Part shown: one piece after another, positions 4,639 through 59,973 of the stretch
Layout: each line of letters starts with the position of its first letter
Numbering within the stretch: the first letter of the stretch is position 1
Translations under genes and position numbers: made by a program
Origin: Gayadomonas joobiniege G7
GTDB taxonomy: Bacteria > Pseudomonadota > Gammaproteobacteria > Enterobacterales > Alteromonadaceae
DNA length: 64,000 nt
Direction: 5' to 3'
Assembly (NCBI RefSeq): GCF_000300815.1
Contig: NZ_AMRX01000006.1
Coordinates: forward strand, 434,001 to 498,000
The notes under the pieces: model-generated
Seen by the model: the letters and a program-made list of their open reading frames with translations, nothing else
The model's database searches: none
What the model was told of the DNA's origin: nothing

Positions 4639-4783
4639 TATGCAAACACCGCGATTGTTTTTGGGATTTTCGCAAAACCAGACATCGCCGCTGTTTGCAG
4701 GATTGTCGCCAACACCTTTGGTGGTGGCGACATACGCGGGGCAAGGACTATGACGTGATGTCGGGGGGTACGAATGTCGAAAA

Positions 4784-4892
4784 GGTTGGCGTTGGATCGT
4801 TTGTGAGAAATGCGTCACCAGCAGGGAGGCTGGTGTCGAGCCTATAGGGAAATATTCACGGCGTCATTTCGAATAAATGTCCAACACCAACC
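4784..4892 (+). repeat. 109-bp structured intergenic element, copy 1
   Basis: It is bounded by a 13-bp imperfect inverted repeat (GGTTGGCGTTGGA / TCCAACACCAACC, one C-A mismatch) and contains an inner perfect 7-bp hairpin CACCAGC/GCTGGTG plus the conserved segment GAGCCTATAGGG. The same length and layout recur at 5098 and 18857. No function is known to me. Confidence 0.8.
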
Positions 4893-12170: not shown

Positions 12171-12683
12171 GTGAATTCCTTACAACAATAATTAGGGGCA
12201 ATAATTCACCGCAAGTATAGGCAAAAAATTATAAAAAGCCATAACGATTAATTGTGAATTGTTTACGTATCGGCCGCCGACACCCATTGTATGTCGGCTC
12301 CACCGATAGGTGCAGCCGACATTTTGCAAACACAACGATTGTTTATGGGGGCCGCGCACAAATCCAAACACCGCGATCGCCTGCAAATTGTCGCCAACAC
12401 CTGCGGTGGTGGCGGGTTGTTGGAAACGCCGTTGGCGGTTCCAACCTACGAAAATTTCAACAAAGCGATATGATGTAGGTCGGCTCCGCCGTAGGCGCAG
12501 CCGACAATCGGCAAACACCGCCACTGTTTGCGCACAACCAAACACCGAAATGAATAAAAATTCACTAAAATGGTATAATTATGAAAAATCTACTCAATTC
12601 AACTGCAAAATCTGTTAACTCTGTGGCCAGTCGTGTATTATATCGCCCATTAAATTTTTTAAACCAATCAGGAAGCGAATTAC
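12171..12683. repeat. Gene-free region with REP composite
   Basis: It contains a type-A REP variant at 12289-12323 (CACC/GGTG inner pairs), a B-C chimeric hairpin at 12388-12449 matching the one at 747-808, and a type-A REP at 12475-12508. The same order A/B-C/A and the linker GAAAATTTCAACAA occur in the first kilobase. The last 130 bp before the aminotransferase are AT-rich and presumably hold its promoter; I cannot assign boxes with confidence. Confidence 0.8.
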
Positions 12684-13966: not shown

Positions 13967-14566
13967 ATGAAATCCACTTTACTCACCCTAACCTTAAGCC
14001 TTATCCTGCTGTCGGCTTGCTCAACACGAGAAAAACGCGAACAATTTTCTGGCTCAACCGAACAACGTCTAGTGACCTATAGCATTCAAGAAGTGGCTAA
14101 AGCATTTACCCAAGAACCACTAGACATTCTCACCAACAAGAGCTTTAGCGTTGAAAGCTACTTTTTATTAGACAACTATGTTGTAGATTTTGCCGAAGCC
14201 AAAATCGTAAGCAGCATTAGCGAAGCTTTTAATGCCAAATATCAAAAGCCGCTCATTAATTATACTGGTGAGCCTACAGAGCAGCCAAAAGCCGAATACA
14301 CCTTAAAGCTATTTTTTAACTCACTCGGCACAGATCGTGATCAGGCTGGTTTTTCGTTTCCGTTAATTAACCTGAGTGAACCAGAAAAAAGTACCTCAAT
14401 TAGTTTGTTAGCGGTCGATATGTATCATGGTATTTCAGAGTGCGAATACATATTAGTTGATTCACAAAACAATGAAATAGTATACAAAGGGCATATAAAA
14501 GCCCGAGTGCGCACCGACAACTTTACAACACCAATATTTAGCTTTCCGCTATCCGATCTGGATTAA
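13967..14566 (+). CDS. Lipoprotein of unknown function
   Basis: This is a 199-residue protein with a lipobox LSAC (Cys18) after a hydrophobic signal, preceded by the ribosome site TTGGAGGATAG. The mature part has mixed alpha/beta character with a conserved-looking ILVDSQNNEIVYKGHIKARV segment near the C terminus. I do not recognise the family. It is followed after 11 bp by a seven-unit REP array, so it ends its transcript or is separated from the glutaredoxin gene by seven hairpins. Confidence 0.75.
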   Translation: MKSTLLTLTLSLILLSACSTREKREQFSGSTEQRLVTYSIQEVAKAFTQEPLDILTNKSFSVESYFLLDNYVVDFAEAKIVSSISEAFNAKYQKPLINYTGEPTEQPKAEYTLKLFFNSLGTDRDQAGFSFPLINLSEPEKSTSISLLAVDMYHGISECEYILVDSQNNEIVYKGHIKARVRTDNFTTPIFSFPLSDLD

Positions 14567-14577
14567 ACACTTTAGTT

Positions 14578-14918
14578 GTAGGTTTGCACCGCCGCAGGCG
14601 TTGCAAACAATGCGCGAACACTTTAGTCGTAGGTTTGCACCGCCGAAGGCGTTGCAAACAATGAGCGAACACTTTAGTCGTAGGTTTGCACCGCAGAAGG
14701 CGTTGCAAACAAAGTGCGAACACTTTAGTTGTAGGTTTGCACCGCCGAAGGCGTTGCAAACAATGCGCGAACACTTTAGTCGTAGGTTTGCACCGCCGAA
14801 GGCGTTGCAAACAAAGTGCGAACACTTTAGTCGTAGGTTTGCACCGCCGAAGGCGTTGCAAACAATGCGCGAACACTTTAGTCGTAGGTTTGCACCGCCG
14901 CAGGCGTTGCAAACAAAG
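14578..14918 (+). repeat. Seven-unit 51-bp REP array (type D)
   Basis: The GTAGGTTTGCACC hairpin recurs at 14578, 14629, 14680, 14731, 14782, 14833 and 14884, exactly 51 bp apart. Each unit is a hairpin (TTTGCA...TGCAAA arms) plus the linker with GCGAACACTTTAGTC. From unit 3 on the linkers alternate between an AAGTGC and an ATGCGC form, suggesting growth by 102-bp dimers. Because 51 is a multiple of 3, several frames stay open through the array, giving false ORFs of 17-residue repeats. Confidence 0.95.
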
Positions 14919-14943
14919 TGCTATATAAAAGGAGTCTCTATTT

Positions 14944-15633
14944 ATGGCAAAAAATGTAAAAATTTATCGCAAAAAAATGTGCCCGTTCGGGCAAAAAGCC
15001 GTCGATTTGTTAACGCAACAAGGCTACAGCTATCAAGATCATTTATTTGATGATAAAGAAGAAGAGCAAACCTTTAAAGCCGGACACCAAGTAAGCACAA
15101 CACCGCAAATATTTATTGACGGTGAGCGCATTGGTGGTTATTCGGAACTTGCTAAACATTTTAACGTAGCCCCAGAGACAAATAAAAACAAAAAATCCTA
15201 CGTGCCTGTGGTTGCATTATTTTCGGTTGCTTTATTGTTAGCCCTGGCCACCGAAACCCAATTTAAAGGTTTTATGGGCTTTTCGCTCAGTTTGCTCGCA
15301 CTGCAAAAACTAATGGACATAAAAGCCTTTGTTAGCGGTTTTAAACAATATGATCTGTTGGCACCACATATTACGCCATATGCGTATGCTTATCCGTTTT
15401 TAGAGCTTGCGAGTGGTTTAGGCATATTAGCCTCATTTATTTTGCCAGCGGTTGCTATTGTAATGCTGGTTATCGGTGGGATAGGGGCCGTTTCTGTGAT
15501 CAACAGCGTTTACATTAAAAAGAAAGATTTAAATTGTGCCTGTGTCGGCGGAAATTCCAACGTACCGCTTGGCGCTTTAAGTTTAACCGAAAATCTTATG
15601 ATGTTATTTATGGGCATTATTTTAATCGTGTAA
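14944..15633 (+). CDS. Glutaredoxin-MauE membrane fusion protein
   Basis: This is a 229-residue two-part protein. Residues 1-75 form a glutaredoxin fold (VKIYRKKMCPFGQKAVDLL, TTPQIFIDGERIGGY) whose active site is CPFG, i.e. only the first cysteine of the usual CPYC. Residues from about 85 form a four-helix MauE/DoxX-like membrane domain, ending with a loop NCACVGGNSNVPLGALSL that carries a Cys-x-Cys. A role in membrane thiol-disulfide exchange or methylamine-dehydrogenase-type maturation is inferred from the families. The ribosome site GGAG starts 12 bp after the end of the REP array, so the seven hairpins form its 5' neighbourhood. Confidence 0.82.
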   Translation: MAKNVKIYRKKMCPFGQKAVDLLTQQGYSYQDHLFDDKEEEQTFKAGHQVSTTPQIFIDGERIGGYSELAKHFNVAPETNKNKKSYVPVVALFSVALLLALATETQFKGFMGFSLSLLALQKLMDIKAFVSGFKQYDLLAPHITPYAYAYPFLELASGLGILASFILPAVAIVMLVIGGIGAVSVINSVYIKKKDLNCACVGGNSNVPLGALSLTENLMMLFMGIILIV

Positions 15634-15835: not shown

Positions 15836-16098
15836 GTTAGAAACACCTTTGGTGGTTCCAACCTACAACAAACATCAAATGTGTCTGCATAGTGTTGGAA
15901 TCACCTTTGGTGGTTCCAACCTACAACAAACATCGCATTTGACTGCATATTGTTGGAAACACCTTTGGTGGTTCCAACCTACAACAAACATCACATTTGT
16001 CTGCATATTGTTGGAAACACCTTTGGTGGTTCCAACCTACAACAAACATCGCATTTAACTGCATATTGTTGGAATCACCTTTGGTGGTTCCAACCTAC
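15836..16098 (-). repeat. Five-unit 58-bp REP array (type C)
   Basis: The hairpin GTTGGAAACACC...GGTGGTTCCAACCTAC starts at 15836, 15894, 15952, 16010 and 16068 with a constant 58-bp period; two units carry GGAATCACC instead. The foot GTAG lies on the minus strand, so the array points towards the cpdB-like gene's 3' end and its last unit touches that gene's stop codon. Confidence 0.95.
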
Positions 16099-18138
16099 CT
16101 ATTTTAAATTAACTTTGTACAAGGCAAAACCTTGTTCATTGGTTTGGCCGGTAGGGCTCACAGCAGGTAAATTGGCTGCAATATCTTCAACTTCGGCCAG
16201 TGGCGAGGTCGTAAATACGACATTTAAATCTGTATCCGTAGTAATTTTTGCAAACGACCAGTTACCGTCTGCCGAAGGATCAAAGCCGTTTTCACCAGCC
16301 TGGTTTGCTTGCTCAATTAAATAATTACGCAATACACCTCGGTTTTCGTCAGGCCCTTCAAACGTTTCGCGCGAGCTGCCATCAATGGCTGGGAAGTTAC
16401 CACCACCGCCGGCACGGTAATTGTTAGAAACCACCAAAAAATCACCGTTCATATCAATTGGCTGACCATTATATTGCAAATTAATAATGCGCTCGTAGGC
16501 TTCATTAACTAAATTGCCATCTAAATCGTAGCGTGACGGTTGGGTTACATCAATTTGGTAAGTAACACCGTCAATAACATCAAAATTAAAAGTTGGAAAT
16601 GCGGCATTAACCAACTGCTGTTGCTCGCTAGAGTTAATATCAATTTGATTAAACTGACCGGCAGAACGCTCTAACCACTCTTTAACATCACTGCCTTTAA
16701 CTTTAATCATACGGATAGTATTTGGAAAAACATACAAGCTAACCGTATCTAATAAAGCAATATCACCCGCTTTAACAAACGTAAAATCATCCGGACCATT
16801 ACGACCTGCTCTAAAAGGTGCAGCGGCCGATAAAACTGGCAAACCGTCTAACTCAGTGCCGGCAATAAAGTTTTTACCCCAATTAATTTGAGCATCCGAA
16901 ACAACCTGAATTGAAGGGTCATCCTGCACTAACGAAAAAAAGCTAAATATAGGCGCAGACACTTTAGCAAAAGGTTCGCTAATCCATTTGATAGTGGCCT
17001 GATGTTCAGTATCAATTGCTGATAATACACCCGCATGCGGAGTTGGCGTATAATCAACAAATTGACCGTCTTCGGTGCCAGAAATGGCTCTTAGTTCAAC
17101 ATCCGAATCAACGACAGTCCAGCCTGAATCTTTATATTCCAGCTCTAAATCAATGACCCCTAAATGATTACCAAAAAAGCCGGGCATCACTGCAGGTACA
17201 CCGTTTAATTTACCATTTTTATTGTCTATGCCAGCCGTTTCATAGCCATTGTACGCTGGATCGCCAGGAAAGTTTCTATGGTTATGACCAAATAAAATAG
17301 CATCCACATGGTCTATTTTAGATAGCTCCAACGAGGCGTTTTCAGCAAGTGATTCATACGCGCTTGAGGTTAAACCTGAGTGAGGCACCAAAATAACCAC
17401 ATCGGCGCCTTTGGCTTTCATTTCGGGAACAAACTTTTTAGCGGTTTCTACAATATCTTTTGCAATCACCTTGCCATCTAAATGAGCATTATCCCATTGC
17501 ATGATCTGCGGGGGTGTTAAACCCAAATAACCCACTTTAATGGTTTGCTCGTTGCCACTTTCATCCCAAACGATTTTTTCTTGAATATAATAAGGCGTGT
17601 AACGGTTAACGTCGTTTTCATCAAGGTCGTCACCGTCGTCTACATAAACGTTGGCATTAATATAAGGAAATTCAGCGCCTTTTAATGTGGCATCTAAAAA
17701 CTCTAAACCAAAATTAAATTCATGGTTGCCTAAATTAGCAACATCATAATCGAGCTGATTCATGGCTTTAAATACAACGTGGGTATCGCTGCTCATAATC
17801 TCATCGCGGCGTTCGATTGCTTCATAATCCCCAAGCGGACTATTTTGAATCAGGTCGCCGTTGTCAACCAAAACACTGTTTTTAACTTCGGCGCGTGCGT
17901 TTTCGATTAACACTGCAGTATTCGCAAACCCCAAAGTTTCCGATTTTGATTGTGCAAAATAGTCATAGTTGGCCAGATACATATGAATATCTGTTGTTTC
18001 CATTACCCGCAAATGCACAGTATCTTTTGGTGTTTCTGTGTTGTCACCGTCTAAATCTAACTCAACCGAACAACCCGCTAATAGCGCAGTTGAAATAGAT
18101 AAGCTGATTAACCCTTGTTTAAAATATCTAAAATTCAT
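16099..18138 (-). CDS. cpdB: CpdB-family 2',3'-cyclic phosphodiesterase / 3'-nucleotidase lipoprotein
   Basis: This is a 679-residue calcineurin-fold nucleotidase. It has lipobox LAGC (Cys23), the metal-binding METTDIHMYLANYDY, VDNGDLIQ, LGNHEFNFGLEFL, LVPHSG and FGHNHRNFPG, then the C-terminal nucleotide-binding domain with VVSNNYRAGGGGNFP. These are the CpdB family hallmarks; the enzyme releases nucleosides and phosphate from periplasmic or surface nucleotides. E. coli CpdB is soluble and periplasmic, while this one is predicted to be lipid-anchored. It has no operon partner. The stop TAG is followed immediately by the GTAG of a REP. Confidence 0.9.
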   Translation of the reverse strand: MNFRYFKQGLISLSISTALLAGCSVELDLDGDNTETPKDTVHLRVMETTDIHMYLANYDYFAQSKSETLGFANTAVLIENARAEVKNSVLVDNGDLIQNSPLGDYEAIERRDEIMSSDTHVVFKAMNQLDYDVANLGNHEFNFGLEFLDATLKGAEFPYINANVYVDDGDDLDENDVNRYTPYYIQEKIVWDESGNEQTIKVGYLGLTPPQIMQWDNAHLDGKVIAKDIVETAKKFVPEMKAKGADVVILVPHSGLTSSAYESLAENASLELSKIDHVDAILFGHNHRNFPGDPAYNGYETAGIDNKNGKLNGVPAVMPGFFGNHLGVIDLELEYKDSGWTVVDSDVELRAISGTEDGQFVDYTPTPHAGVLSAIDTEHQATIKWISEPFAKVSAPIFSFFSLVQDDPSIQVVSDAQINWGKNFIAGTELDGLPVLSAAAPFRAGRNGPDDFTFVKAGDIALLDTVSLYVFPNTIRMIKVKGSDVKEWLERSAGQFNQIDINSSEQQQLVNAAFPTFNFDVIDGVTYQIDVTQPSRYDLDGNLVNEAYERIINLQYNGQPIDMNGDFLVVSNNYRAGGGGNFPAIDGSSRETFEGPDENRGVLRNYLIEQANQAGENGFDPSADGNWSFAKITTDTDLNVVFTTSPLAEVEDIAANLPAVSPTGQTNEQGFALYKVNLK

Positions 18139-35574: not shown

Positions 35575-35609
35575 ATAAGAAGATTTTAATTCGAGTAAGA
35601 GTGGATATA

Positions 35610-37779: not shown

Positions 37780-39015
37780 TTGATTAACTTAAACCGATTA
37801 AATATAGATAACTTTTTATACTATATACTTATTGCGTACTTTATTACCGATCTGTTCCAAGCACCATTGAGGTTTTTTTTGTCTTTAGCCTCTTTAAGCT
37901 TTTTGTTTTATATACCTAAAGCATTGTTGTTTTGTGCATGCTTTTACAAAGCAAGATTGTTAAAAAATATACACGCATTTGTGATTATAATGTTTTTGGG
38001 TTTTTATTTTTGCTACACGACTTTAGTGTCGCAAAGTTTAACCCAGAGCCTATATTTTGCGTCGATAATTTCGGTTTTTTTATTTGTATTATGTCACAAG
38101 GCTATTTTTGATCGATTGGCACGTAACCGTACTTTACTTTGGTTTTTTCTGTTTGCCAGTTTAGCAGGGCTAATATATGATATGAATTTTGTACCCGTGT
38201 GGAGAGGGGCCGTTGTCGAGGTTGGTGGAGTTGAAATTGAAGCGGCTAGGTACTGGACATCCTTCGGTACGGTTCGCTACGCAGGCTTTACTAATGCCTC
38301 TTTTGCTTTGGCGTCTTGGGTTTGTTTACTTGCTTGTCTTTTGCTGAAGGAGTACAGATTCAAAGGTCTTCAATCTTTGTTTGTTGTGTGTTTTTCCTTA
38401 TATATCGTATATGCATCAAACACGAAGTCTTTCATTGCAGCCTTAGTCTTGATATATTTGTTCTATTTCATCGCTCGCTTTCTACCTAATAATTTTGATA
38501 AGGTTTTTCCTGCTTCGATATTATTTACAGTTATATGTTTTCCGGTTATGTGTGTAAGTGGTTTGTTAGATTTAGGTGCAATCGTTGATCGAAGTTCTAC
38601 AGTGTTTTTCTCTTTGGTAGTCAGGTCAGAGTATACTTGGCCCTTATCTTTTAGCCTTCTAGAAACTACTGTTACTCAGTTATTCGGGCTGGGCATCGGT
38701 GGCATTGGTACAGTTCAAGCCAAGTTGAATGGAAGTCCACTTAGCACTGCGGATAATTTGTTTGTTTATTTGTACTGTATGTTTGGTATATTTTCGTTGG
38801 TGATCTCTTATTACCTTTTTTATCTTATTTTCACTTCGGATCGCAGAGCTACATATTACCGAGCTATTTTAAGCCTTGTTTTATTTTTTGGGATTACTGG
38901 AAATGTAATTGAGAACCCTGCATCAATGCTGTTGTTGGCGTATGCAATTCTTAATTTAGTTAAACCGGAAACTTTGCAAGCAACAGAATTTTCATCAGCT
39001 AAATATACCAATTAA
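37780..39015 (+). CDS. wzy: Wzy-type polysaccharide polymerase
   Basis: This is a 411-residue protein that is almost entirely membrane spans (about ten to twelve), with a larger periplasmic loop around residues 130-175 (WRGAVVEVGGVEIEAARYWT) and another near 285-330. This topology plus low similarity is typical of Wzy, and the locus otherwise lacks a polymerase. The start is TTG at 37780 with GAGG 5 bp upstream. A 12-codon ORF (ATG 37749, stop TAA 37785-37787) overlaps this start and could couple translation. Confidence 0.75.
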   Translation: MINLNRLNIDNFLYYILIAYFITDLFQAPLRFFLSLASLSFLFYIPKALLFCACFYKARLLKNIHAFVIIMFLGFYFCYTTLVSQSLTQSLYFASIISVFLFVLCHKAIFDRLARNRTLLWFFLFASLAGLIYDMNFVPVWRGAVVEVGGVEIEAARYWTSFGTVRYAGFTNASFALASWVCLLACLLLKEYRFKGLQSLFVVCFSLYIVYASNTKSFIAALVLIYLFYFIARFLPNNFDKVFPASILFTVICFPVMCVSGLLDLGAIVDRSSTVFFSLVVRSEYTWPLSFSLLETTVTQLFGLGIGGIGTVQAKLNGSPLSTADNLFVYLYCMFGIFSLVISYYLFYLIFTSDRRATYYRAILSLVLFFGITGNVIENPASMLLLAYAILNLVKPETLQATEFSSAKYTN

Positions 39016-44278: not shown

Positions 44279-45685
44279 ATGGGAAAAAGAGGGTATTTGA
44301 GGGAGCATCAACATGCTTTTTCCTCGTTGTATAGGGTTATCGATGTAGTTTTAATTTGCTTAACACTTTTTGTTTCTTGGGACTGTTTTGCAGGCCTTGA
44401 CACTAAACAACATTATTTCGTCGCTATAGTAGCTTCGCTGATCTTTTTATACTTAGCTGAGACTTTCGGCTTATACCGCAGTTGGCGATTAGCCCGTTTT
44501 TACCAGTTAGCTCGCACTATAACATTTGTATGGTCGGTTACTTTTTTATCTACCGTTTTTGTTGCAGTTTTGCTCGAGATACCAGAGGGCGTTTCGCAAC
44601 TCGTTTTTGTGTCATGGGGACTCGTTGGTACTTTTCTACTATCCGCTTGGCGTTATGCTTATTATGTTGCGATAAAGAAGCTACGAAAAAAAGGATTTAA
44701 TACAAGGTCGGTAGCTATAATCGGTCATACGAGAGTCGGAAAGGAACTTTATAAACAAATTCGGCTACACTCTGAAGCAGGCCTAAAATTTGTCGGCTTT
44801 TACGAGGATCGCATGCCGCAGCGCTACATGGGGGACAAGTATTCCAGTGACTTTATTCGTGGTTCGGCCGAAGATGCTATAAAAGCTGCCCAGCGAGGTG
44901 AAATAGATCAAATATATATTGCTCTGTCTTTGAAGCAAGAAGATCGAATTAGCCAGTTATTAGTTGAACTGGGAGATACTACTGCTGATGTACATTTTAT
45001 CCCAGATTTTTTTGTATTTAATTTGGTGCAATCTCGTATGGGATACGTCGGTAACCTAACTACCTTAAGTGTTTTCGAATCACCTTACGCTGGGACCAAT
45101 AGCTGGTTAAAACGCGCCGAAGATATAATATTCTCATCGATTATTTTATTCATAATTTCCCCAGTTTTATTGGCTATAGCTATTGGCGTTAAAGTGACTT
45201 CTCCCGGCCCAGTTATATTCAAACAGTATCGTTATGGTTTGGATGGTAAACGTATTAAAGTTTGGAAATTTCGTTCTATGACGACAATGGATAACGGTGA
45301 TAAAGTTGTCCAGGCTAAAAAGGGGGATGCACGAATTACACCCTTTGGCGGCTTTTTACGCCGAACTTCTTTGGATGAGTTGCCACAGTTTATCAATGTG
45401 TTGCAAGGCAGAATGTCCATAGTAGGTCCTCGACCTCATGCAGTTGCTCACAATGAAGAATACCGTAAAAAAATCAATTATTACATGATGCGTCACAAAG
45501 TTAAGCCGGGCATAACAGGTTGGGCACAAATTAACGGATGGCGCGGTGAGACGGATACACTCGAAAAAATGGAAAAACGCATAGAATATGACTTGCATTA
45601 TATAGGGAATTGGTCGGTGTGGTTTGATATAAAAATTATTTTTTACACCGTTTTTAAAGGGTTTTTGGATAAAAACGCTTATTAA
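44279..45685 (+). CDS. wcaJ: Undecaprenyl-phosphate glucose phosphotransferase (WcaJ type)
   Basis: This 468-residue initiating transferase has four or five N-terminal membrane spans, a cytoplasmic Rossmann-like domain (SVAIIGHTRVGKELY) and the catalytic C-terminal domain (PGPVIFKQYRYGLDGK, VWKFRSM, RRTSLDELPQFINVLQGRMS, VGPRPHA, KPGITGWAQINGWRGET). It puts the first hexose-1-phosphate, usually glucose, onto undecaprenyl phosphate. UDP-glucose would come from the galU gene at the other end of the locus. Confidence 0.94.
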   Translation: MGKRGYLREHQHAFSSLYRVIDVVLICLTLFVSWDCFAGLDTKQHYFVAIVASLIFLYLAETFGLYRSWRLARFYQLARTITFVWSVTFLSTVFVAVLLEIPEGVSQLVFVSWGLVGTFLLSAWRYAYYVAIKKLRKKGFNTRSVAIIGHTRVGKELYKQIRLHSEAGLKFVGFYEDRMPQRYMGDKYSSDFIRGSAEDAIKAAQRGEIDQIYIALSLKQEDRISQLLVELGDTTADVHFIPDFFVFNLVQSRMGYVGNLTTLSVFESPYAGTNSWLKRAEDIIFSSIILFIISPVLLAIAIGVKVTSPGPVIFKQYRYGLDGKRIKVWKFRSMTTMDNGDKVVQAKKGDARITPFGGFLRRTSLDELPQFINVLQGRMSIVGPRPHAVAHNEEYRKKINYYMMRHKVKPGITGWAQINGWRGETDTLEKMEKRIEYDLHYIGNWSVWFDIKIIFYTVFKGFLDKNAY

Positions 45686-45731: not shown

Positions 45732-47804
45732 ATGACCCGTTTGACAATTATACCTTTGGTGGCCATGGCTTTTACATCAGCTATTCATGGTGCGCCAGTA
45801 AGCCCGTCGCTGCAAGGATATTCAGGTTATTTTAATATCCCGAGTGGAAGTTTATATGACTCTGGTGATTTAAACGTTTTTTATAGTAATCAAACAGAGT
45901 TTTTTGGCGAGCTACGAGATACGCACAATTTTCAATTTGCTGTAAGTTTATGGGACTATGTCGAACTTTCAGCTAGGGACGCTGCCTACACACGCACGAT
46001 TGGCGAAAGTTCTGATATGTCTGCAAATCTTAAAGTTAGAGTCCCTTTCATTCCAGAAAACTGGTTCAAACTGTCTTTGGGGATACAAGATTTAGGTGGT
46101 CAAGTTGACTTTTTTGACTCTAAATTTGTTGCAGTGTCTAAAGATTTAGAGTTTATCAATACCGAAGTGACTTTAGGTTTTGGTAAAAGTGAATCTCGAT
46201 TTGATAGAATTGACGGTGCTTTTGGCGGTTTAAAATGGAGTCCAGTCGAATGGGGCTCAGCGATTGTTGAATATGATGCATATAGTATAAATTATGGGGT
46301 GGAATTTAGAACGCCCAAACATCTTATTGACGGTCAAACTCAGTTTTATACAAAAGTTATGCTTGGTGCAAGTGAGGATGCACTTGCGGACGAAACCTTT
46401 TTTAGTATTGGTGCTCAGAGATCTTTAGTTAAAGACAGGAGTAACATTAAACCCGCACTGATTAGTCAAGGTAGGGTAATAGAACAAAATACCATGAGGG
46501 AAGATTCGTTAAACTTATTGGCTAAAGCGCTTCGCCAAAAAGGTTTTGATGATTTTCGATTAGGGCATAAAGGAAAGATTATTGTTTTACAAGTTGAGAA
46601 CAACTTATATAGCAGTAATATCATAGATACTTATTCTGTTGTTTTAGCTTTGATTGCTCGGTACAGTTCAGACGAATTTTCAGAATTTCAAGTAAGTGTT
46701 CAGCAAAACGGGATAACTTTTGATTCAGTTGCCGGTAATATTCAAAAATATCAAGAGTTTTTAAGGGGTGGGAATTTATCCTTAAGTAGCGACAAAATTA
46801 CTGAAGGTGTATCATGGCAAGACGAAGCAGAGCCTTTTTTCTTCAAACCTCGATTCACTCTCTACCCACACTTAGTTACAGCTGTCGGCACTGAATTTGG
46901 CATGTTTGACTATTCATTGGCTTTGGGAAGTCACTTGGAGTTGCCTGTGCCAGTATGGGATGGTTTAGCTATTACAGCATTCCATTTAACACAGCTAGAA
47001 GAAAGTAAAGATTTTGAAGATGGTCAAATATTTCAAGGAGACCGTCAGCAAACTGGGCTGCAAAACCTATTAGTTCATCAGTCGTTTGAACTACCTCACA
47101 ACATTACCACTATGTTAACTTACGGTCAGTTTAGCCAAGACTACACATTAACAGCAGCAGAGGCAGCTTGGCAAAGTGATAGCGGCCGTCACGGACTATT
47201 TTTATATTATGGTGATTATCAATATAACGAAGAAGCAGACTACGCCTACAACCACGCTTGTTTAAACGCCGGCTTTTCGTTATCTGATTGTTATCAGGTG
47301 ATCCCTGAGCACGAAGATAAAAAAGTGACTGTTGCTAAATACCAGTATTATTCACCTGAACTAAACTCTACCCTTTTAACTAAATATGGAAAATTTTGGG
47401 GCGGTGATACGGGCGTGCATATGTTATTAAGCCGTCACTTTGATGATTTTGATATTAATCTATCCTTTAAAGCAACCAAACCCGATGGTGATGTAGATGC
47501 TTTAAGTGGCGGTTACCAATATCAAGACGAATACACCAAAATGATAGGTTTAGGTTTTACCATGCGTTTAGGCCCGAGAAAAGACTTTAACTCTAAATAT
47601 GTTAATGTTCGTGGGCGTCCAGATTGGAATTATATTGTGCATACCCTAGTGGGTGAACGGCTTAATTATTTAACCTATGGCGTGGCTGATGAAGGCCGAG
47701 CGTTTTATCACCTAAACAATCAATTTAGCAATTATGGGCGCAAAGGCTTAAGTTATCTATACGAAAATCAAGATAGATTACGCAGTGCAAATTTTGAATT
47801 ATGA
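45732..47804 (+). CDS. YjbH-domain outer-membrane protein
   Basis: This 690-residue protein has a signal peptide (MTRLTIIPLVAMAFTSAIHGA) and the YjbH signature PSLQGYSGYFNIPSGSLYDSG near the N terminus, with many barrel-like strands after it (GDLNVFYSNQTEFFGEL; TKMIGLGFTMRLGPRKDF). YjbH proteins accompany exopolysaccharide export and are thought to be outer-membrane components. It follows wcaJ by 46 bp. Confidence 0.9.
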   Translation: MTRLTIIPLVAMAFTSAIHGAPVSPSLQGYSGYFNIPSGSLYDSGDLNVFYSNQTEFFGELRDTHNFQFAVSLWDYVELSARDAAYTRTIGESSDMSANLKVRVPFIPENWFKLSLGIQDLGGQVDFFDSKFVAVSKDLEFINTEVTLGFGKSESRFDRIDGAFGGLKWSPVEWGSAIVEYDAYSINYGVEFRTPKHLIDGQTQFYTKVMLGASEDALADETFFSIGAQRSLVKDRSNIKPALISQGRVIEQNTMREDSLNLLAKALRQKGFDDFRLGHKGKIIVLQVENNLYSSNIIDTYSVVLALIARYSSDEFSEFQVSVQQNGITFDSVAGNIQKYQEFLRGGNLSLSSDKITEGVSWQDEAEPFFFKPRFTLYPHLVTAVGTEFGMFDYSLALGSHLELPVPVWDGLAITAFHLTQLEESKDFEDGQIFQGDRQQTGLQNLLVHQSFELPHNITTMLTYGQFSQDYTLTAAEAAWQSDSGRHGLFLYYGDYQYNEEADYAYNHACLNAGFSLSDCYQVIPEHEDKKVTVAKYQYYSPELNSTLLTKYGKFWGGDTGVHMLLSRHFDDFDINLSFKATKPDGDVDALSGGYQYQDEYTKMIGLGFTMRLGPRKDFNSKYVNVRGRPDWNYIVHTLVGERLNYLTYGVADEGRAFYHLNNQFSNYGRKGLSYLYENQDRLRSANFEL

Positions 47805-47937: not shown

Positions 47938-48324
47938 ATGATTAAAGAAAAATCAGATCGTAGAATTATTCGCTCGTTAAGCCGAAGGACCTTTTGTGGG
48001 GCCTTAGCACTTATGCCTTTTGGTGCTGTATTGTTTAACAAAATAATTATGAACGGTACCCCTCAATTTGATTTGTTGAACAAAAGCAACATTAACATTG
48101 GAGTTTGGATTATTGAGCAGTTAACTACAAATGGAGTGCGTGTATTTATAGAGGAAAATCAGGACCTAGTTACAATTATATCGAGTGGAGAGTATATTAA
48201 TATCCCAAAGCGTATTTCTCAAGATTTTCATGAGGGCAAAGTTGTAAAGATAGAAGGCTTTGTATTTTCTAAAACAGAGGCTCTACTTTGTATTATTTCC
48301 GCTCAGAATAACGGGAGAGTCTGA
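47938..48324 (+). CDS. Twin-arginine small protein partnering the GMC oxidoreductase
   Basis: This 128-residue protein begins with a Tat signal: SRRTFCGALALMPFGAVLF matches S-R-R-x-F followed by a hydrophobic core. The mature part ends in GKVVKIEGFVFSKTEALLCI, reminiscent of small proteins encoded before sugar-type GMC dehydrogenases. In gluconate 2-dehydrogenase and fructose dehydrogenase the small subunit carries the Tat signal and escorts the folded flavoprotein. The next gene begins 5 bp later and has no export signal of its own, which fits this model. Role inferred. Confidence 0.7.
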   Translation: MIKEKSDRRIIRSLSRRTFCGALALMPFGAVLFNKIIMNGTPQFDLLNKSNINIGVWIIEQLTTNGVRVFIEENQDLVTIISSGEYINIPKRISQDFHEGKVVKIEGFVFSKTEALLCIISAQNNGRV

Positions 48325-48329
48325 TATTT

Positions 48330-49904
48330 ATGTCTAATAGCCAATTTATTGATGCGAATAGTACTCACGTCGACAATGAAATAACTACGGATATATGTGT
48401 AGTGGGTGGGGGAGCCGCTGGGATTACGTTAGTTAGGCATCTCCCTAAAGATAAACGTATTATTATGATCGAATCCGGAAGTTTTGATATGGACGGGGAC
48501 ACTCAAGCACTTTATACCGGTATTAATAAAAGTTTACCTTATTTCGATTTATTAACATGTCGGTTAAGATATTTTGGCGGTACTACCAATCATTGGGGGG
48601 GATTTTGCCGCCCAAATGACACCATTGATTACGAAGGCAGAGCTTCGTTAGGACTTCCTAAGTGGGCGGTAAGTGAAAAGGAATTGGGCCCATATATTGA
48701 CGCGGCTGCAAAAGAACTCGGTCTGAAATACAGTTTCAATGACGATACTAAGTTATTATCAGATCATGGTATATCTCCAAGTGAATTAATCGATGACGAG
48801 GTGCCTGATTTTAAAACAAAGATTATTCAGATTACTGAGAAAAAGCGACTTGGTAAAATTTATAGGAGAGAATTATCTGAACAAAAAAACCTAAACGTTT
48901 ACTTAAACCTAAATTTAGTTCATATACAACTTGATAGAAATACTGGCTCTAAAGTTGAGCATTTGGTTTGTAAAACCCTTTCTGGAAAAACTATTACTGT
49001 TAAAGCAAAACGCTTTGTATTGGCGTGCCATGGAATTGAGAATGCGAGATTGTTACTTAACTCTAACGATGTACATAAACAAGGGCTTGGTAATAAATTC
49101 GACCATGTTGGACGTTATTTTATGGAGCACGTGCACATTAAAGCGTCTAAATTAATCCCATCAAATCGTTTTCCGGTCTTTTATAACCGGGAAGTTTTAA
49201 TTAAGAACAACCTCAATGCCAATATTAGTTTTACGGATGATTTTACTAGGCGTAATGACATGTTGCAGTATTACTGTCGATTTCTTCCAATTTATTCGGA
49301 TAAGCAAGTAGTAGACTCTGCAAAAGGAATTATAGCCGAGATCAATAAGCCATTTTCAAAGAGCCTATTTGAAGATTTTAAAGTAGTCTTGAATGATATG
49401 GCAAGCGTGAAAGGCAAACTCTATTATGCTTTGGGCATGAGAGATAAGCCTAAGTATTATTATTTAGATCAACGGATTGAACAAGCGCCCAATAGAAATT
49501 CAAGGGTCGTTTTATCAGATAAAAAAGATGCATTTGGTTGCCCGCTTGCAGATTTAGATTGGAACCTAAACGAGCATGATTATGCAGCGTTTAGGAAAGG
49601 CCAAGATAAAATAATTAAAGAAATAAGTGCGATGGGAGCAGGTCGTTTTATAGAAGAAGAGATCACTAAACAATTGGTTGATGAACGCGCGACAGGACAT
49701 TATCACCATATTGGCACAACAAGAATGAGCGAAAGTATTCAAGATGGTGTGGTTGATAGCAACTGTAAAGTCCATGGAGTATCAAACTTGTATATAGCGG
49801 GAAGCTCTGTTTTCCCAACCGCAGGTTATTCTGGGCCAACAATGTTAATAATAGCGTTGTCAATGCGTTTGGCTGAACATCTGTCTGCAGAGGGTGCTAT
49901 GTAA
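48330..49904 (+). CDS. GMC-family FAD oxidoreductase
   Basis: This 524-residue flavoprotein has the dinucleotide motif VVGGGAAG (GGGAAG at residues 26-31), GGTTNHWGGFCRPND (the membrane-dehydrogenase type loop), HGIENARLLL and a C-terminal block HYHHIGTTRM (about 456) with GSSVFPTAGYSGPTM (about 501). Where related dehydrogenases have NPT, this one has GPT, so the second catalytic residue is replaced. No signal peptide; export would depend on the Tat partner. Its stop overlaps the cytochrome start (TAATG). Probable activity: FAD-dependent oxidation of a sugar or alcohol with electrons passed to the cytochrome. Confidence 0.88.
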   Translation: MSNSQFIDANSTHVDNEITTDICVVGGGAAGITLVRHLPKDKRIIMIESGSFDMDGDTQALYTGINKSLPYFDLLTCRLRYFGGTTNHWGGFCRPNDTIDYEGRASLGLPKWAVSEKELGPYIDAAAKELGLKYSFNDDTKLLSDHGISPSELIDDEVPDFKTKIIQITEKKRLGKIYRRELSEQKNLNVYLNLNLVHIQLDRNTGSKVEHLVCKTLSGKTITVKAKRFVLACHGIENARLLLNSNDVHKQGLGNKFDHVGRYFMEHVHIKASKLIPSNRFPVFYNREVLIKNNLNANISFTDDFTRRNDMLQYYCRFLPIYSDKQVVDSAKGIIAEINKPFSKSLFEDFKVVLNDMASVKGKLYYALGMRDKPKYYYLDQRIEQAPNRNSRVVLSDKKDAFGCPLADLDWNLNEHDYAAFRKGQDKIIKEISAMGAGRFIEEEITKQLVDERATGHYHHIGTTRMSESIQDGVVDSNCKVHGVSNLYIAGSSVFPTAGYSGPTMLIIALSMRLAEHLSAEGAM

Positions 49905-50578
49905 TGTTAAAAGTCATTGTATTTATCCTAACATTTTTTATACCACCGGTAGGATTGGTAGCTAGAAAAAATGTCAAATTTACTTACCAATTGCTCAGCG
50001 TATTAATTTGGTCTTGCGCAGCTTTGTGCTTTTTTTATTATTCAGTTTTAATCGCATTGTTGGTACATACTGGTTTAGTCATTTTTAGCGTTTTTTACCC
50101 ATTATTATTAAAAAGGCAAGAAATATTCAGCACTCAAAAAAGAACCTCAAGGTTTCTATTTTTAAGTGTTACCATTATATGCGTTTTATCAGTTTATGAA
50201 TTTAGTTCGCGTACAGCTGGCGAAGACACTGTTGTCGTTAAGAGTAAAAAAAATCAAAAATTGAACCTAAATTCGAGCTTAGAAAATGGTGCTGATCTCT
50301 TTAAAAATTGCTTAGTGTGTCACGGAGCTGAGCCGGGAAAACACTTAGTTGGTCCTACGTTATTTAAAGTTTTTGGAAGAAAGTCAGGGATTTTAGAAGG
50401 GTATAATTATTCCGAAAGTATGAAAACTATAGATATTGTATGGGATGAACAAAATCTAACAAAGTTTCTTAATAACCAAAATGCGGTTGTGCCTGGGACA
50501 CGTATGTTCATTTCGCCAATGTCGAAAAACGATATTCAAGATTTGATTTTATACTTAAAAAAAGAACAAGCTGATTGA
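49904..50578 (+). CDS. Membrane-anchored cytochrome c
   Basis: This is a 224-residue protein. The first part has two to three membrane spans; residues 1-20 (FILTFFIPPVGLVARKN) look like the Pmp3/YqaE type, and another span lies near residue 80-95. The C-terminal class I cytochrome c domain carries heme motif CLVCH at about 136-140 and the distal ligand region PGTRMFISPM. It starts within the stop codon of the GMC gene. In membrane sugar dehydrogenases the cytochrome subunit carries electrons to quinone; the same use is inferred here. Confidence 0.87.
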   Translation: MLKVIVFILTFFIPPVGLVARKNVKFTYQLLSVLIWSCAALCFFYYSVLIALLVHTGLVIFSVFYPLLLKRQEIFSTQKRTSRFLFLSVTIICVLSVYEFSSRTAGEDTVVVKSKKNQKLNLNSSLENGADLFKNCLVCHGAEPGKHLVGPTLFKVFGRKSGILEGYNYSESMKTIDIVWDEQNLTKFLNNQNAVVPGTRMFISPMSKNDIQDLILYLKKEQAD

Positions 50579-51209
50579 TATATAGTTTGTTACACCTTTA
50601 CTAATGGTGTTCGTCATTTTAATTTTTCGATGCGCGGATCCTGAACTTATTGGTTTACCTGTTTATCAACCTAGTGGATATAATTTCATTAATACTTAAG
50701 TGTACGAGCTAAGTATTACGATCAAATTATCGGTGCAAATTCATCATCTTAAGGCCGACCACTGGGTTGCTATATCAGGAAGTCTGAATCTAACTATCAA
50801 TGGTAAAGATTGTTTACTTACCGAAAACAAGGCTACTTGTAACCCTGTTGGTGTAGTGCGTGTGTAAGAAAGACAGGCAAAGTATTACTGGAGCTCATAA
50901 AGTTTATATTGTCTGGCCCTTATTTCGTGGATGATATTGTCCGTTTTCGAAGCAGATACGGGGGGTGAGGGATGTGTACATTAATATTTAAGCAAGGCTC
51001 GATGGGCTCAGGTTAGATATGTTTGTATGTGCGGTCTTTTAAGCAAATATTAGATGTTATAGCTGATTATCCGGTATGGTCGGCTAGCGATCAAAACAAG
51101 AATTATTAAAAAATGTTGTGTGTTTGTAAGTTTTTATAAACACCTTTTAAGTAATGAGGACTGGTGTTTGTGCCACTTTGTCCTTAACAAATAATATCAT
51201 AGGATAATT
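50579..51209. other. 631-bp gap with manC relic
   Basis: Apart from the decayed manC segment at 50712-50968, the gap contains no credible ORF. The remaining 240 bp before the acyltransferase gene are AT-rich and may hold its promoter. Confidence 0.6.
50712..50968 (+). pseudogene. Decayed C-terminal fragment of a manC-type gene
   Basis: In one frame the segment reads KLSVQIHHLKADHW, then SGSLNLTINGKDCLLTENKA up to a stop at 50865. In another frame it resumes GKVLLELIKFILSGPY, then DDIVRFRSRYGG and a stop at 50966. The intact manC at 52346 has [36 protein letters not shown] and [13 protein letters not shown] in the same order. The fragment is therefore a frameshifted remnant of the cupin (isomerase) domain; the first 380 or so codons are missing. 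Confidence 0.88.
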
Positions 51210-52345: not shown

Positions 52346-53755
52346 ATGTTTTTACCAGTAATTATGGCCGGCGGCTCTGGCTCTCGTTTATGGCCTTTAT
52401 CTCGCTCTGCTTACCCTAAACAATATCTACCGTTAACCAGTGACAATAGCATGTTGCAAGAAACCGTTTTGCGGTTAGCTGGCACTAAGCACAGATCGCC
52501 TATGGTTATTTGTAACGAAGATAGCCGCTTTATGGTGGCAGAACAGTTGCGTGCAATCGATGCGCTTAAAAGCCCTGTGGTGTTAGAACCAGTTGGTCGC
52601 AATACAGCACCCGCCATTGCTCTGGCGGCTTTGCAAGCGGTTGCCGATGGGGATGATCCAGTCTTATTAGTGTTGGCGGCAGATCATGTAATAAAAAATC
52701 AAACCGCGTTTGCCGAGGCCATTAACAAAGCGCAAGCGCTCGCCGAGCAAGATGCTATGGTTACCTTTGGCATAGTGCCAACGCATGCCGAAACGGGTTA
52801 CGGGTATATTAAACGGGGTAGTGAGCAAGACACAGCGTATAAAGTTGATTGTTTTGTCGAAAAACCAGATTTAGCCACAGCCACTGAATATTTAAATTCG
52901 GGTGAATATTATTGGAATAGTGGCATGTTTATGTTTAAAGCCAGCCGTTATTTGGCTGAGCTTGAAAAATTTAATCCAGAGATTTTAGAAGCCTGTAAAA
53001 AAGCGATTGGCAATACTTCGTCTGATTTAGATTTTGTGCGGGTAGACAAAGCCGCGTTTGAAGCTTGCCCAGACGACAGCATAGATTATGCCGTAATGGA
53101 AAAAACACAAAATGCTGTGGTTGTTCCGTTAGATGCCGGTTGGAATGATGTAGGCAGTTGGTCAGCTCTTTGGGACGTTAACGATAAAGATGAAAACGGC
53201 AATGCAGTGCGTGGTGACTTTATTGGCGAAGACACTAAAAACTCATTAGTGTATGCCTCGGTTGAAGGCCGTATGGTGGCCACTGTGGGTGTGCAAGATT
53301 TAGTGATTGTAGATACTAAAGATGCCGTTATGGTGGCGCACAAAGACGAAGTACAAAAAGTTAAGAACATAGTTAATAAATTAAAAGCCGATAAACGTAG
53401 CGAATGTAAATTTCATCGTGAGGTGTATCGCCCTTGGGGTAAATACGACTCTATTGATAACGGCAGCCGTTATCAGGTTAAACGCATTACCGTAAAACCA
53501 GGGGCTAAATTATCAGTGCAAATGCATCACCACAGAGCTGAGCATTGGATTGTGGTGTCTGGTACCGCAAATGTAACCATTGATGGTAAAGATATTTTAT
53601 TAACTGAAAACCAGTCTACTTATATTCCTGTAGGTGCCGTGCATGCGTTAGAAAACCCAGGCAAAGTGCCGCTTGAGTTAATTGAGGTTCAGTCTGGTTC
53701 TTATTTAGGCGAAGATGATATTGTTCGTTTTGAAGACAGATACGGGCGGGTTTAG
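52346..53755 (+). CDS. manC: Mannose-1-phosphate guanylyltransferase / mannose-6-phosphate isomerase
   Basis: This is a 469-residue bifunctional type II enzyme. The pyrophosphorylase motif GGSGSRLWP lies at residues 9-17 with KQYL, and FVEKPD near 170. The C-terminal cupin isomerase domain has [20 protein letters not shown]. It makes GDP-mannose; manB downstream supplies mannose-1-phosphate. The locus has no gmd or fcl, so GDP-mannose is probably used as such. The next gene starts 3 bp later. Confidence 0.95.
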
Positions 53756-57143: not shown

Positions 57144-57977
57144 CTATTCTTTATACAAATTATTATAAACATAGTTGGTTGCTTCAACAAAACCTTTTAC
57201 GCTGCCACAATCAAAGCGTAGGCCTTTAAATTTATAACCAATCACTTTACCTTGACGAGCTTGCGTTAATAACGCGTCTGTTAACTGAATTTCTCCATTT
57301 TTACCTGGTGGCGTTTTACGAATAATATCGAAAATATCTGGCGTTAGAATATAACGACCAATAATAGCAAGATTAGAAGGCGCATCTTCAACCGCTGGTT
57401 TTTCTACCATATCTGTAACCTGATAACGTCCATCCCCTAAATCTTTACCAGCAATCACACCGTATTTTGAAATGGTTTCTTTTGGAACTTCCATCAAAGC
57501 TACTACAGAACAGCCTGTTTCAGAGTGAATTTTCGCCATTTGTTTCATAACACCATCACCATTGAGGGGTTCTGGTAAGCATAAATCATCGGCTAAAATA
57601 ACACCAAAAGGATCATTACCCATTAAGGTTTCACCACACAAAATAGCATGACCTAAACCTTTCATTTCTGGTTGACGGGTGAATGAAAAAATACCATTGT
57701 TCATTACGTATCGAACTGACTCTAAGAATTTTTCTTTACTGGTACCTGAAATTTCGTTTTCTAATTCATAAGAGATATCAAAATGATCAGCAATCGCTCG
57801 CTTGGTTCTACCTGTTACAAACCCTATATACTGCATGCCTGCTTCTAGTGCTTCTTCAACTCCGTATTGAATCAGTGGTTTATTTACGATTGGCAGCATT
57901 TCTTTAGCTTGAGCTTTAGTTGCTGGCAAAAAACGTGTGCCATAACCAGCCGCAGGGAATAAACATTTTTTAACCAT
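57144..57977 (-). CDS. galU: UTP-glucose-1-phosphate uridylyltransferase
   Basis: The 277-residue form starts at the ATG at 57977, which has AGGAAA 7 bp upstream and gives the usual N terminus MVKKCLFPAAGYGTRFLPAT; an ATG 12 codons upstream (58013) has a poor ribosome site. Further motifs are KEMLPIVNKPLIQYGVEEA, LGHAILCGE, ADDLC and EKP. It makes UDP-glucose for ugd and probably for the initiating transferase. It closes the locus in the opposite orientation. Confidence 0.95.
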   Translation of the reverse strand: MVKKCLFPAAGYGTRFLPATKAQAKEMLPIVNKPLIQYGVEEALEAGMQYIGFVTGRTKRAIADHFDISYELENEISGTSKEKFLESVRYVMNNGIFSFTRQPEMKGLGHAILCGETLMGNDPFGVILADDLCLPEPLNGDGVMKQMAKIHSETGCSVVALMEVPKETISKYGVIAGKDLGDGRYQVTDMVEKPAVEDAPSNLAIIGRYILTPDIFDIIRKTPPGKNGEIQLTDALLTQARQGKVIGYKFKGLRFDCGSVKGFVEATNYVYNNLYKE

Positions 57978-58352
57978 ACTTGGTTTCCTTTTTTTACCGT
58001 TGGAATTAGCCATACAAGGCTCATTTACAAATAATGCTATGGGTAAGTCTAGAACTCAAGACTCTAATAATGATTATTAGAGAAAAATATCGAACACGGA
58101 GTTAAGGGCGTTTGAGTTGAAATCGGTTTGAATTTTACCGATGTTAGTATTGCAATATGTGTGTTTAGAAATGATAACGAAGTTAGTGCATATCTAGGCT
58201 TAATCGCTAAATTAAACGAATTAGGTAAGTAACAACATATTATTAACTTATTGATGCTTGTTTTTTAACCACCCTGTGCTATGGTTTTTATATTCGGATT
58301 GTCTGTTGTCTGTTGTTCCGATATTCGTGTTCTTAACAGAAAGGAGTCAAGC
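57978..58352. other. Divergent intergenic region
   Basis: This stretch lies between galU and the unknown paralogue pair. It is AT-rich, without REP or ORF of note, and should hold promoters for both directions. The plus-strand gene has a strong AAAGGAG ribosome site at its 3' end. Confidence 0.5.
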
Positions 58353-59141
58353 ATGTCAGATCCAATCGTCTCTCCCGTCCCTGGAGATGCCAACAGCCGA
58401 AAACTCTGGGCGACAGGTTCTACCGATATACCTGCCACTAAACAGTTTGTTGTAAATGCAACAGGTAATATATTTATTGCAACCACATTAGGTTCTAGCG
58501 ATAGCTCGGGCACCAATGTTCCAGCCGCTGCGCAAAAAGCTTTTACCGAAGTTAGCGTATATTTTGCGGCTTTAACAAAAGCGCTGGCTGAAGAAAACAA
58601 AAGCATTTTTAACTACTCAGCAATGGAAAAAGCCATTAGTAAATCTGGTTTTTTTATTCAGTTAAACAAAAGCGAAATTGATTTTAAAAGCAAAAAGTGG
58701 GGAATTGAGTTTAGTAACGATCTCATTCAAAGCTTGCTTGGTTTTAGTGGTAATTTAAGCGCTTTGGGTAAGTCTTTGCAAAGTATGTTAATCGGCGTTG
58801 GAAAAGAAGCAATTACCGTAAGCGCTGAAAGCGACGAAACTAAAGCAAAAGTTTGTTCGTTGATATTTATTCTAGAGTATTTGCTTGGCGCAGTATCTAT
58901 CACACCTATTTTGTTATCAGTTAATAAAGAGCAGTTAAAAAGCGAGCTTGGTGTTGGCCCCTGTGTTAAAGCAAATAGTAAAGAGTTTAATATTACCGTC
59001 GATAAAACCATGTATTTATTTGTGCCGCCGGCATTTATTCAACATGCTGAGGAGTTTACAACAGCGATGAGTAATGCTTCTTTTGATAAATTGGTTGAGG
59101 CGATAAAAGCAGATATTAGCCAAGGTGCATCAGATGGCTAA
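58353..59141 (+). CDS. Unknown protein, first of a tandem paralogous pair
   Basis: The 262-residue reading starts at the ATG at 58353 behind AAAGGAG. Conserved blocks shared with the next gene are FTEVSVYFAALTKAL, an IFNYSAMEKAISKSGFF segment, and TMYLFVPPAFIQHAEEF near the end. There is no signal peptide; a mid-protein segment (IFILEYLLGAVSITPILLSV) is hydrophobic. I do not recognise the family. It overlaps the next gene by 8 bp, so the two are translationally coupled and probably work together. Confidence 0.78.
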   Translation: MSDPIVSPVPGDANSRKLWATGSTDIPATKQFVVNATGNIFIATTLGSSDSSGTNVPAAAQKAFTEVSVYFAALTKALAEENKSIFNYSAMEKAISKSGFFIQLNKSEIDFKSKKWGIEFSNDLIQSLLGFSGNLSALGKSLQSMLIGVGKEAITVSAESDETKAKVCSLIFILEYLLGAVSITPILLSVNKEQLKSELGVGPCVKANSKEFNITVDKTMYLFVPPAFIQHAEEFTTAMSNASFDKLVEAIKADISQGASDG

Positions 59142-59973
59142 AACGGATATTGGTGCACGCGGGCGTGCGCCTAAAAAGCCTAATCCGCCGGAAGACTCGT
59201 CAGTATATTACCCAATAGAAAAATACTATGTATTTAGCGAAACGGGCAATATTGTTTTGTGTACTACAGAGGCCGTTAATCAAGAGTTTGACAGCGACAT
59301 TAAAGATGCTTTTACCGATGTGTCGGTATTTTTTGCGGCAATGACAAAAGCCTTGGCCAGCACCATTAATTCAGCGACCGGTAAACCTTTTTCTATTTAT
59401 AACTTTTTCGCTGTTGAAAAAGTATTATGTGCATCCGGCATGTTTGTAGAAGTTCAATCACAAATGGATACTTTTAACTCTTCGGGTGTAGGGGAGAGTC
59501 TAGCGCAAACTTTTATTGAAAAAGCATTAAATCGCAAATTAGATCGTAGCAAACTTGGTTTTGGTCGCGGTATGTTTCAGGGCATGCGAGAGCAGCAGTC
59601 GGCTCAACAAGGACAAATAAATCAAACGGGGCAATTGTTTTTTGTTTGTGAAAGCCTAATGGGGTTGCCACAAACAACTGCGATTTTATTAAACATAAGA
59701 GATAAAAGTGTTACCGACAAACCAGCCAGTGACCGGCAAGAAATTGAGCTAGAGGAAGAAGCAGAGCCTGCCGATGTGTTAGATTTAGGTGTGCGCAGCG
59801 AAACCCAGCATAAGTTTGCTGAAAGCGGCGCTATTGAGCGCAAATGGCAGTTTACCAAAAAGGTTTATCTTTTTGTGCCCCCTAAATTGGTCGCTAAAAA
59901 CTCAGACGATTTTAACGGCATTTATCCAAGTGGTTACGCAAACCTTATAGAAACCATGAAAGACGCACTCTAG
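59134..59973 (+). CDS. Unknown protein, second of a tandem paralogous pair
   Basis: The 279-residue reading starts at the ATG at 59134; the GTG at 59125 is less likely. It shares with its neighbour FTDVSVFFAAMTKAL, FAVEKVLCASGMFVEV and a C-terminal KKVYLFVPPKLV. Between them it has a Gln-rich stretch (QREQ-like, near residue 155) and an acidic insertion EIELEEEAEPADVLDLG absent from the first copy. The N terminus is basic and proline-rich (GARGRAPKKPNPPED). Function unknown; the pair may form a hetero-oligomer. Confidence 0.78.
   Translation: MAKTDIGARGRAPKKPNPPEDSSVYYPIEKYYVFSETGNIVLCTTEAVNQEFDSDIKDAFTDVSVFFAAMTKALASTINSATGKPFSIYNFFAVEKVLCASGMFVEVQSQMDTFNSSGVGESLAQTFIEKALNRKLDRSKLGFGRGMFQGMREQQSAQQGQINQTGQLFFVCESLMGLPQTTAILLNIRDKSVTDKPASDRQEIELEEEAEPADVLDLGVRSETQHKFAESGAIERKWQFTKKVYLFVPPKLVAKNSDDFNGIYPSGYANLIETMKDAL

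Follow-up and report, generated by a model that had tools for sequence, protein, structure and literature searches.

A candidate Tat-exported, one-heme cytochrome-linked GMC dehydrogenase encoded in a polysaccharide locus of Gayadomonas joobiniege G7

Results

Gene content of the locus

The DNA analyzed, referred to here as the window, is a stretch of 64,000 nt from Gayadomonas joobiniege G7 (GTDB: Bacteria; Pseudomonadota; Gammaproteobacteria; Enterobacterales; Alteromonadaceae), corresponding to positions 434,001–498,000 of the forward strand of NZ_AMRX01000006.1 (GCF_000300815.1). Three consecutive genes within it encode a small protein with a Tat signal, a GMC flavoprotein and a membrane-anchored cytochrome c (Table 1). 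A 5-bp gap separates the first two genes, the second and third overlap in a TAATG (stop at 49902–49904, start at 49904), and an AAGGA ribosome-binding-like stretch precedes the small-protein gene. Re-reading of the open reading frames bore out the coordinates and junctions given in the original prediction, and its description of a Tat-signal small protein, a signal-less GMC subunit and a membrane cytochrome with a CLVCH site was upheld by motif, hydrophobicity and Pfam matches. Pfam and profile searches of the window placed the trio in a full polysaccharide cluster, with Wza, Wzc, a MatE flippase, Bac_transf and GT4 proteins as features of a Wzx/Wzy-type locus; the polymerase candidate at 37780–39015 had no Pfam match. 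The predicted position of the trio between YjbH and the acyltransferase/manC genes agrees with both the PF06082 match and the locus annotation. Between the trio and the acyltransferase lies a degenerate duplicate of the 3' end of manC, its identity measured against the intact gene (52346–53755), which on this alignment is a recombination scar and indicates that this part of the locus has been rearranged. TatC is encoded in the G. joobiniege genome.

Elsewhere in the window, short ORFs at 661–1005, 4482–4847, 12192–12545, 14538–15050 and 15950–16324 contain related repeated peptide strings, which suggests that an intergenic repeat element is dispersed across this genome region. Two adjacent look-alike proteins without a Pfam match (58281–59141 and 59125–59973) are encoded near a nucleotidyltransferase gene (57144–58013).

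Table 1. Features of the polysaccharide locus and of the GMC trio, in window coordinates
Feature	Position	Strand	Remarks
Wza	at 26369		
Wzc	at 27978		
MatE-type flippase	at 31247		
SDR and TPP enzyme			listed between flippase and PS pyruvyl transferase
PS pyruvyl transferase	at 35601		
GT4 proteins (three)			polysaccharide locus of the window
UDP-sugar dehydrogenase	at 40369		
WcaJ-type initiating sugar-phosphate transferase	44279–45685	+	
YjbH-family protein (PF06082)	45732–47804	+	adjoins trio upstream
Small Tat-signal protein, 128 aa	47938–48324	+	
Twin-arginine motif SRRTFC, codons	47980–47997	+	in the small Tat-signal protein
GMC flavoprotein oxidoreductase, 524 aa	48330–49904	+	
His459 codon	49704–49706	+	aligned to catalytic His of BcGDH/FDH
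Gly502 codon	49833–49835	+	position of catalytic Asn
Membrane-anchored mono-heme cytochrome c, 224 aa	49904–50578	+	
'PP' membrane module, about residues 1–81 of the cytochrome	49904–50146	+	separate gene in six other quartets
Heme c site CLVCH	50309–50323	+	only CXXCH of the window cytochrome
Degenerate manC 3'-end copy	50724–50965	.	71% nt identity, ~247 alignment columns, E 3e-28
Acyltransferases			between trio and manC
manC, mannose-1-phosphate guanylyltransferase/isomerase	52346–53755	+	downstream neighbour of trio
PMM	at 55670		

A four-module unit recurs in distant bacteria

The GMC protein is rare close to G. joobiniege: of the 147 related genomes, only four apart from its own contained a GMC match at E≤1e-30 (31–40% identity). 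A scan of genome contigs with the single protein gave no relative, but a profile-guided scan with an alignment as query returned 575; the 80 best were retained, so that this sample is one chosen by similarity. The genomes sampled comprised 398 of the phylum, 350 of the class, 367 of the class of G453, 215 of the order and 150 of the family of G482, and 3 of the family/order of G1230; six plasmid records were added to the GMC sample. The 129 distinct GMC loci examined (L201, described below, counted and two duplicate places left out) include only part of the distant genome matches.

The third protein of the trio matched PF00034 (E=1.3e-8; 36.4 bits against a cut-off of 21.3) and is a class I mono-heme cytochrome c in which four hydrophobic segments precede the heme domain. 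In six other genomes a gene beside that of the GMC protein encodes a small membrane protein of three helices in which a PP is conserved, and a profile built from these six separate proteins, the window left out, matched the first ~75 residues of the window cytochrome with an E value of 1.5e-5 among 4038 frames (next 0.5). Judged from this match, the window cytochrome is a fusion of a membrane module and a cytochrome c domain, implying that the membrane module works with the cytochrome, and the unit is, from its recurring parts, a quartet of modules consisting of cytochrome c, small Tat protein, GMC protein and membrane protein. The predicted membrane cytochrome was thus recovered in its CLVCH site and membrane segments, but it is mono-heme and carries a module that is separate elsewhere.

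Profiles of the cytochrome domain and the membrane protein, built from five of the six loci matched (L180 left out), hit exactly 6 of 130 loci, and these were the loci of the six top-scoring GMCs: the window, L015 (Azospirillum halopraeferens), L019 (A. oleiclasticum), L180 (genome G1230), L016 (a Phycisphaerae MAG) and L119 (G482). The membrane-module match of L180 was weak (E 0.006), and its GMC frame (G1230:C1:96821-98233) is broken near the N-terminus in the assembly, which reflects either genuine decay or an error in sequencing. The other 124 of the 130 loci, two of them duplicate places, showed neither the cytochrome nor the membrane module. A seventh quartet, L201 (G1447), was identified afterwards; its order is cytochrome, small protein, GMC, membrane protein. 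The quartet is kept in all seven members of the clade, with gene order and fusion state varying; the separate cytochromes of L015, L016, L019 and L180 are lipoproteins by their lipobox, as read by eye. Because the same modules recur together in six other genomes, the trio is more than a chance arrangement. A tblastn search of a plasmid collection revealed distant relatives only (best 36%) and no quartet. A quartet-level GMC was present in none of seven congeneric genomes (G001–G007) and in one of three genomes of the family of G1230, indicating that the unit is accessory.

The GMC subunit and its active site

The GMC protein matched PF05199 (E=3e-23; 83 bits against a cut-off of 24.6), with an N-terminal PF00732 match under its cut-off, and has no signal peptide or hydrophobic segment. 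Its structural model (pLDDT 90.9, pTM 0.88) was closest among solved structures to membrane fructose dehydrogenase (FDH; Foldseek 6.8e-30, Z 40.8, 440 residues, rmsd 3.6), followed by the FAD glucose dehydrogenase of Burkholderia cepacia (BcGDH; Z 35) and then by choline oxidase and glycoside/pyranose oxidases, these matches being mostly sugar enzymes. In sequence the protein was closest to BcGDH (E 4e-18). Of the usual catalytic pair, a His and a second His/Asn (not universal in the GMC superfamily), the window protein keeps His459, a position occupied by His in 129/129 aligned GMCs, and has Gly502 as the second residue. Gly is found at the latter position in 7/7 quartet GMCs and Asn in 89 of the 129; substitutions of this Asn also occur in other members of the wider family. 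Loss of the Asn in quartet GMCs could reflect altered chemistry and, with Gly in its place, the site is probably shaped by a different residue specific to the clade, for example His457. In a phylogeny of the 129 GMC proteins the seven quartet members were monophyletic (support 1.0), and 13 positions are invariant in this clade and rare outside it (C77, H234, Q313-Y-Y-C-R317, G424, H457, I461, S501, G502 and M505). The sharing of these residues from Proteobacteria to a Phycisphaerae MAG argues for one common substrate or chemistry. Cysteines of the window GMC lie at 23, 77, 93, 214, 233, 316, 404 and 479 and form no 3Fe-4S-type cluster, and such a cluster is also absent from the GMC relatives listed.

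The small Tat-type protein

After its SRRTFC motif the small protein has a single hydrophobic stretch (residues 19–38), and a motif shared by its family follows towards the C-terminus (approximately residues 88–121). The family profile matched the window protein with an E value of 1e-10 and, when built without it, of 1.7e-8, with the next unrelated frame at 1.3. The N-terminus of this profile resembles those of the Tat precursors FtsP, NapA, CueO, OpgD and formate dehydrogenase, although weakly (E 0.1–2). There was no match to a Pfam or NCBIfam family, including the Gluconate 2-dehydrogenase subunit 3 family (PF13618), for either the window protein (E≤0.1) or eight relatives (E≤1), nor did the profile match a solved gamma chain in sequence. 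A structural model of middling quality (pTM 0.54) matched no solved fold, an absence that does not imply a new fold. Outside the clade, 68 of 122 distinct loci have a gene of this family next to that of the GMC protein, often with 4-bp overlaps, and such neighbours occur in several phyla, among them Proteobacteria, Bacteroidota and Cyanobacteria. An RR motif was read in 54/56 of the small proteins, a count biased by a start-codon choice that favoured RR. The small proteins of L119, missed by the profile, and of L201, outside that search, were assigned from position, RR motif and visible C-terminal motif. The protein is presumed to be a hitchhiker or escort of the GMC subunit, and the family, which has no Pfam or NCBIfam model, may represent a second type of Tat hitchhiker alongside the BcGDH gamma subunit.

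Polysaccharide context of the quartets

Profile counts indicated EPS-like surroundings for 4/7 quartets, 11/68 pairs (distant GMC loci with small protein and without cytochrome), 25/54 partnerless GMC loci and 0/18 random 20-kb regions. The difference between quartets and random regions corresponds to a Fisher p of 0.003, or 0.01 with the two Azospirillum counted once, the control regions being few and taken from genomes other than those of most clade members; for the pairs against random regions p was 0.06. Clear polysaccharide loci surround the quartets of the window, L015, L019 and L119. The last of these forms one locus with L202, an exosortase/EPS locus with wcaJ, Wza, Wzc, an XrtB-like protein, manC and rml, several of these names being a reading of translations. 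L201 is a probable fifth case: its short contig encodes wecB, methyltransferases, a UDP-sugar dehydrogenase and a polysaccharide lyase (PF14099), although no glycosyltransferase. The quartets of L016 and L180 have no polysaccharide genes as neighbours. Recurrence of the trio by polysaccharide genes therefore holds for four quartets clearly and a fifth probably, and the contrary case, in which the trio would occur mostly away from such loci, was not observed over the seven, although two of them do lie away, and an EPS substrate is consequently not obligatory.

PF14099 polysaccharide lyases are encoded near the quartet at L019:11821-13680 and L201:4374-5258, and a similar-looking protein was seen by eye in L015; in the G. 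joobiniege genome the only PF14099 match was a single sub-threshold one, elsewhere in the genome. The small partner by itself was rejected as a marker of EPS loci, since such surroundings were found for 11/68 loci with the partner versus 25/54 without. The 25 partnerless loci are not independent, many coming from Paraburkholderia, Burkholderia and kin; EPS loci of that group (L059, L062, L063, L068, L069, L074, L077, L080, L084, L086 and L088) regularly include a gene for a GMC oxidoreductase of this broad family, with no Tat partner or cytochrome detectable beside it and with NFPT as the segment around the Asn position. An earlier tblastn count of EPS markers (10/56 with small protein, 14/34 without, 7/19 in extra genomes, 0/18 random) was not sensitive enough for glycosyltransferases and was replaced by the profile counts.

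Discussion

Proposed function of the unit

The best-supported description of the window unit is that of a putative Tat-co-exported, membrane-held, one-heme GMC dehydrogenase of new composition. From its anatomy and its solved relatives we infer how it might be exported, pass electrons and act. As in BcGDH, the GMC subunit would fold and take up FAD in the cytoplasm and bind the small protein, whose twin-arginine signal would direct transport of both by the Tat machinery. In the periplasm, by analogy with the GMC family, His459 would take the proton of a substrate hydroxyl and FAD the hydride, leaving a keto or aldehyde group. The electrons would then move to the one heme c, which the fused 'PP' module would keep at the membrane, and from there into the respiratory chain. 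Recurrence of the quartet in polysaccharide loci makes an EPS-pathway sugar the likely substrate, and the context would suit a flipped one, whether lipid-linked repeat, nascent polymer or released fragment. We put the chances of a periplasmic, respiration-coupled GMC dehydrogenase acting most likely on an EPS-pathway sugar at about even. More tentatively, the new four-module, Tat-exported, cytochrome-coupled enzyme may perform a redox-editing step in Wzx/Wzy assembly, oxidizing a hydroxyl group on the lipid-linked repeat after flipping, or on the polymer as it grows, and passing electrons to the respiratory chain. That the quartet is rare, common to distant bacteria and mostly found in polysaccharide clusters suggests that some bacteria oxidize a coat sugar outside the cell membrane.

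Alternative explanations

Two of the seven quartets outside EPS loci, the past recombination marked by the manC remnant directly after the trio, the accessory distribution (0/7 congeneric genomes, 1/3 in the family of G1230) and the catabolic nature of the closest solved enzymes would all suit a general catabolic respiratory sugar or alcohol dehydrogenase, comparable to fructose or glucose dehydrogenase, that entered the EPS locus through recombination uptake of foreign genes. We nevertheless consider this less likely, as EPS loci of three separate lineages carry the quartet against none of 18 random regions, these loci otherwise differ from each other, and polysaccharide-lyase-like genes lie near the quartet in L015, L019 and L201.

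The remaining alternatives concern the GMC protein itself. Gly502 in place of Asn in every quartet would be consistent with a protein that is no longer a dehydrogenase and serves as a redox sensor or a structural part coupling respiration to polymer export, and hydroxynitrile lyase, a GMC-fold protein without net redox turnover, provides a precedent. Retention of the catalytic His in all 129 proteins, the constant presence of an electron-accepting heme and the occurrence of Asn-position substitutions in other members of the wider family make this improbable. An enzyme that is not exported and acts on a cytoplasmic or lipid precursor, such as a nucleotide sugar or lipid, would fit the lack of an export signal on the GMC protein itself, and the 25/54 EPS-like partnerless loci encode distant relatives that may be cytoplasmic. 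In the quartet clade, however, the GMC protein invariably occurs with both a cytochrome c and a small protein of Tat type, and heme c is matured outside the cytoplasm; this explanation appears highly improbable.

Relationship to known systems and significance

The original prediction likened the trio to three-subunit membrane sugar dehydrogenases. The overall plan stands, with fructose dehydrogenase closest to the GMC model, but the Fe-S cysteine cluster is missing, there is one heme, Gly replaces Asn and the small protein has no match. Fructose dehydrogenase of Gluconobacter japonicus (PDB 8jej, 7w2j) is alike in having a GMC catalytic subunit with separate small and cytochrome c subunits and in respiration-coupled periplasmic oxidation, as proposed for the window unit. 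Its class differs in its 3Fe-4S cysteines, three-heme cytochrome and His/Asn pair, whereas the window unit has a membrane module in addition, and its small protein shows no sequence similarity that could be detected. BcGDH (PDB 6a2u, 8grj) shares the signal-less GMC subunit and cytochrome acceptor, and its Tat hitchhiker corresponds to the presumed escort of the window unit; the 3Fe-4S cluster, three hemes and His/Asn pair are confined to BcGDH and the membrane module to the window unit, and the small proteins are unmatched. BcGDH is not known to be situated in polysaccharide loci. The DET-type FAD dehydrogenase complexes (BcGDH, FDH and 2-ketogluconate DH) have the Cys-rich 3Fe-4S region and triheme subunit, and the window unit, without both, is not filed among them because these defining features fail; the best reading is that it would function like the three-subunit sugar dehydrogenases and is not a member of them. 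For BcGDH, passages of two published accounts describe the His/Asn pair, a Cys-rich 3Fe-4S stretch, a gamma subunit that serves as Tat hitchhiker and a beta subunit with three hemes (PMC6719666, PMC9727119), and a passage of the former places the 3Fe-4S region of the catalytic subunit at Cys212/213/218/222 (PMC6719666).

In the open-licence literature no report of a GMC/Tat/cytochrome unit in an EPS locus was found, a weak negative given that limit. If the proposed function is correct, respiration-linked oxidation of polysaccharide units beyond the membrane would constitute a new type of tailoring and supply the biofilm matrix with reactive keto/aldehyde sugars, and coat chemistry (keto/aldehyde groups, cross-linking) would depend on respiration. 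The compact one-heme electron path could also interest the biosensor field.

Bacterial pyranose 2-oxidases and C-glycoside oxidases (PDB 7qva, 7dve, 8qve) share the GMC fold and act on glycosides, but are oxidases without a small subunit or cytochrome; an NHW stretch in the window GMC resembles the FAD-linking THW of pyranose oxidase. Pairs of GMC and small Tat-type protein in exosortase-type EPS loci (L010:8234-10133, L011:7910-9872, L100:9998-11973 and others) have neither cytochrome nor membrane module within 2.5 kb and carry Asn or Pro where the window GMC has Gly502; as in the window, they combine a homologous GMC protein (~30–31%) and a homologous small protein with polysaccharide neighbours.
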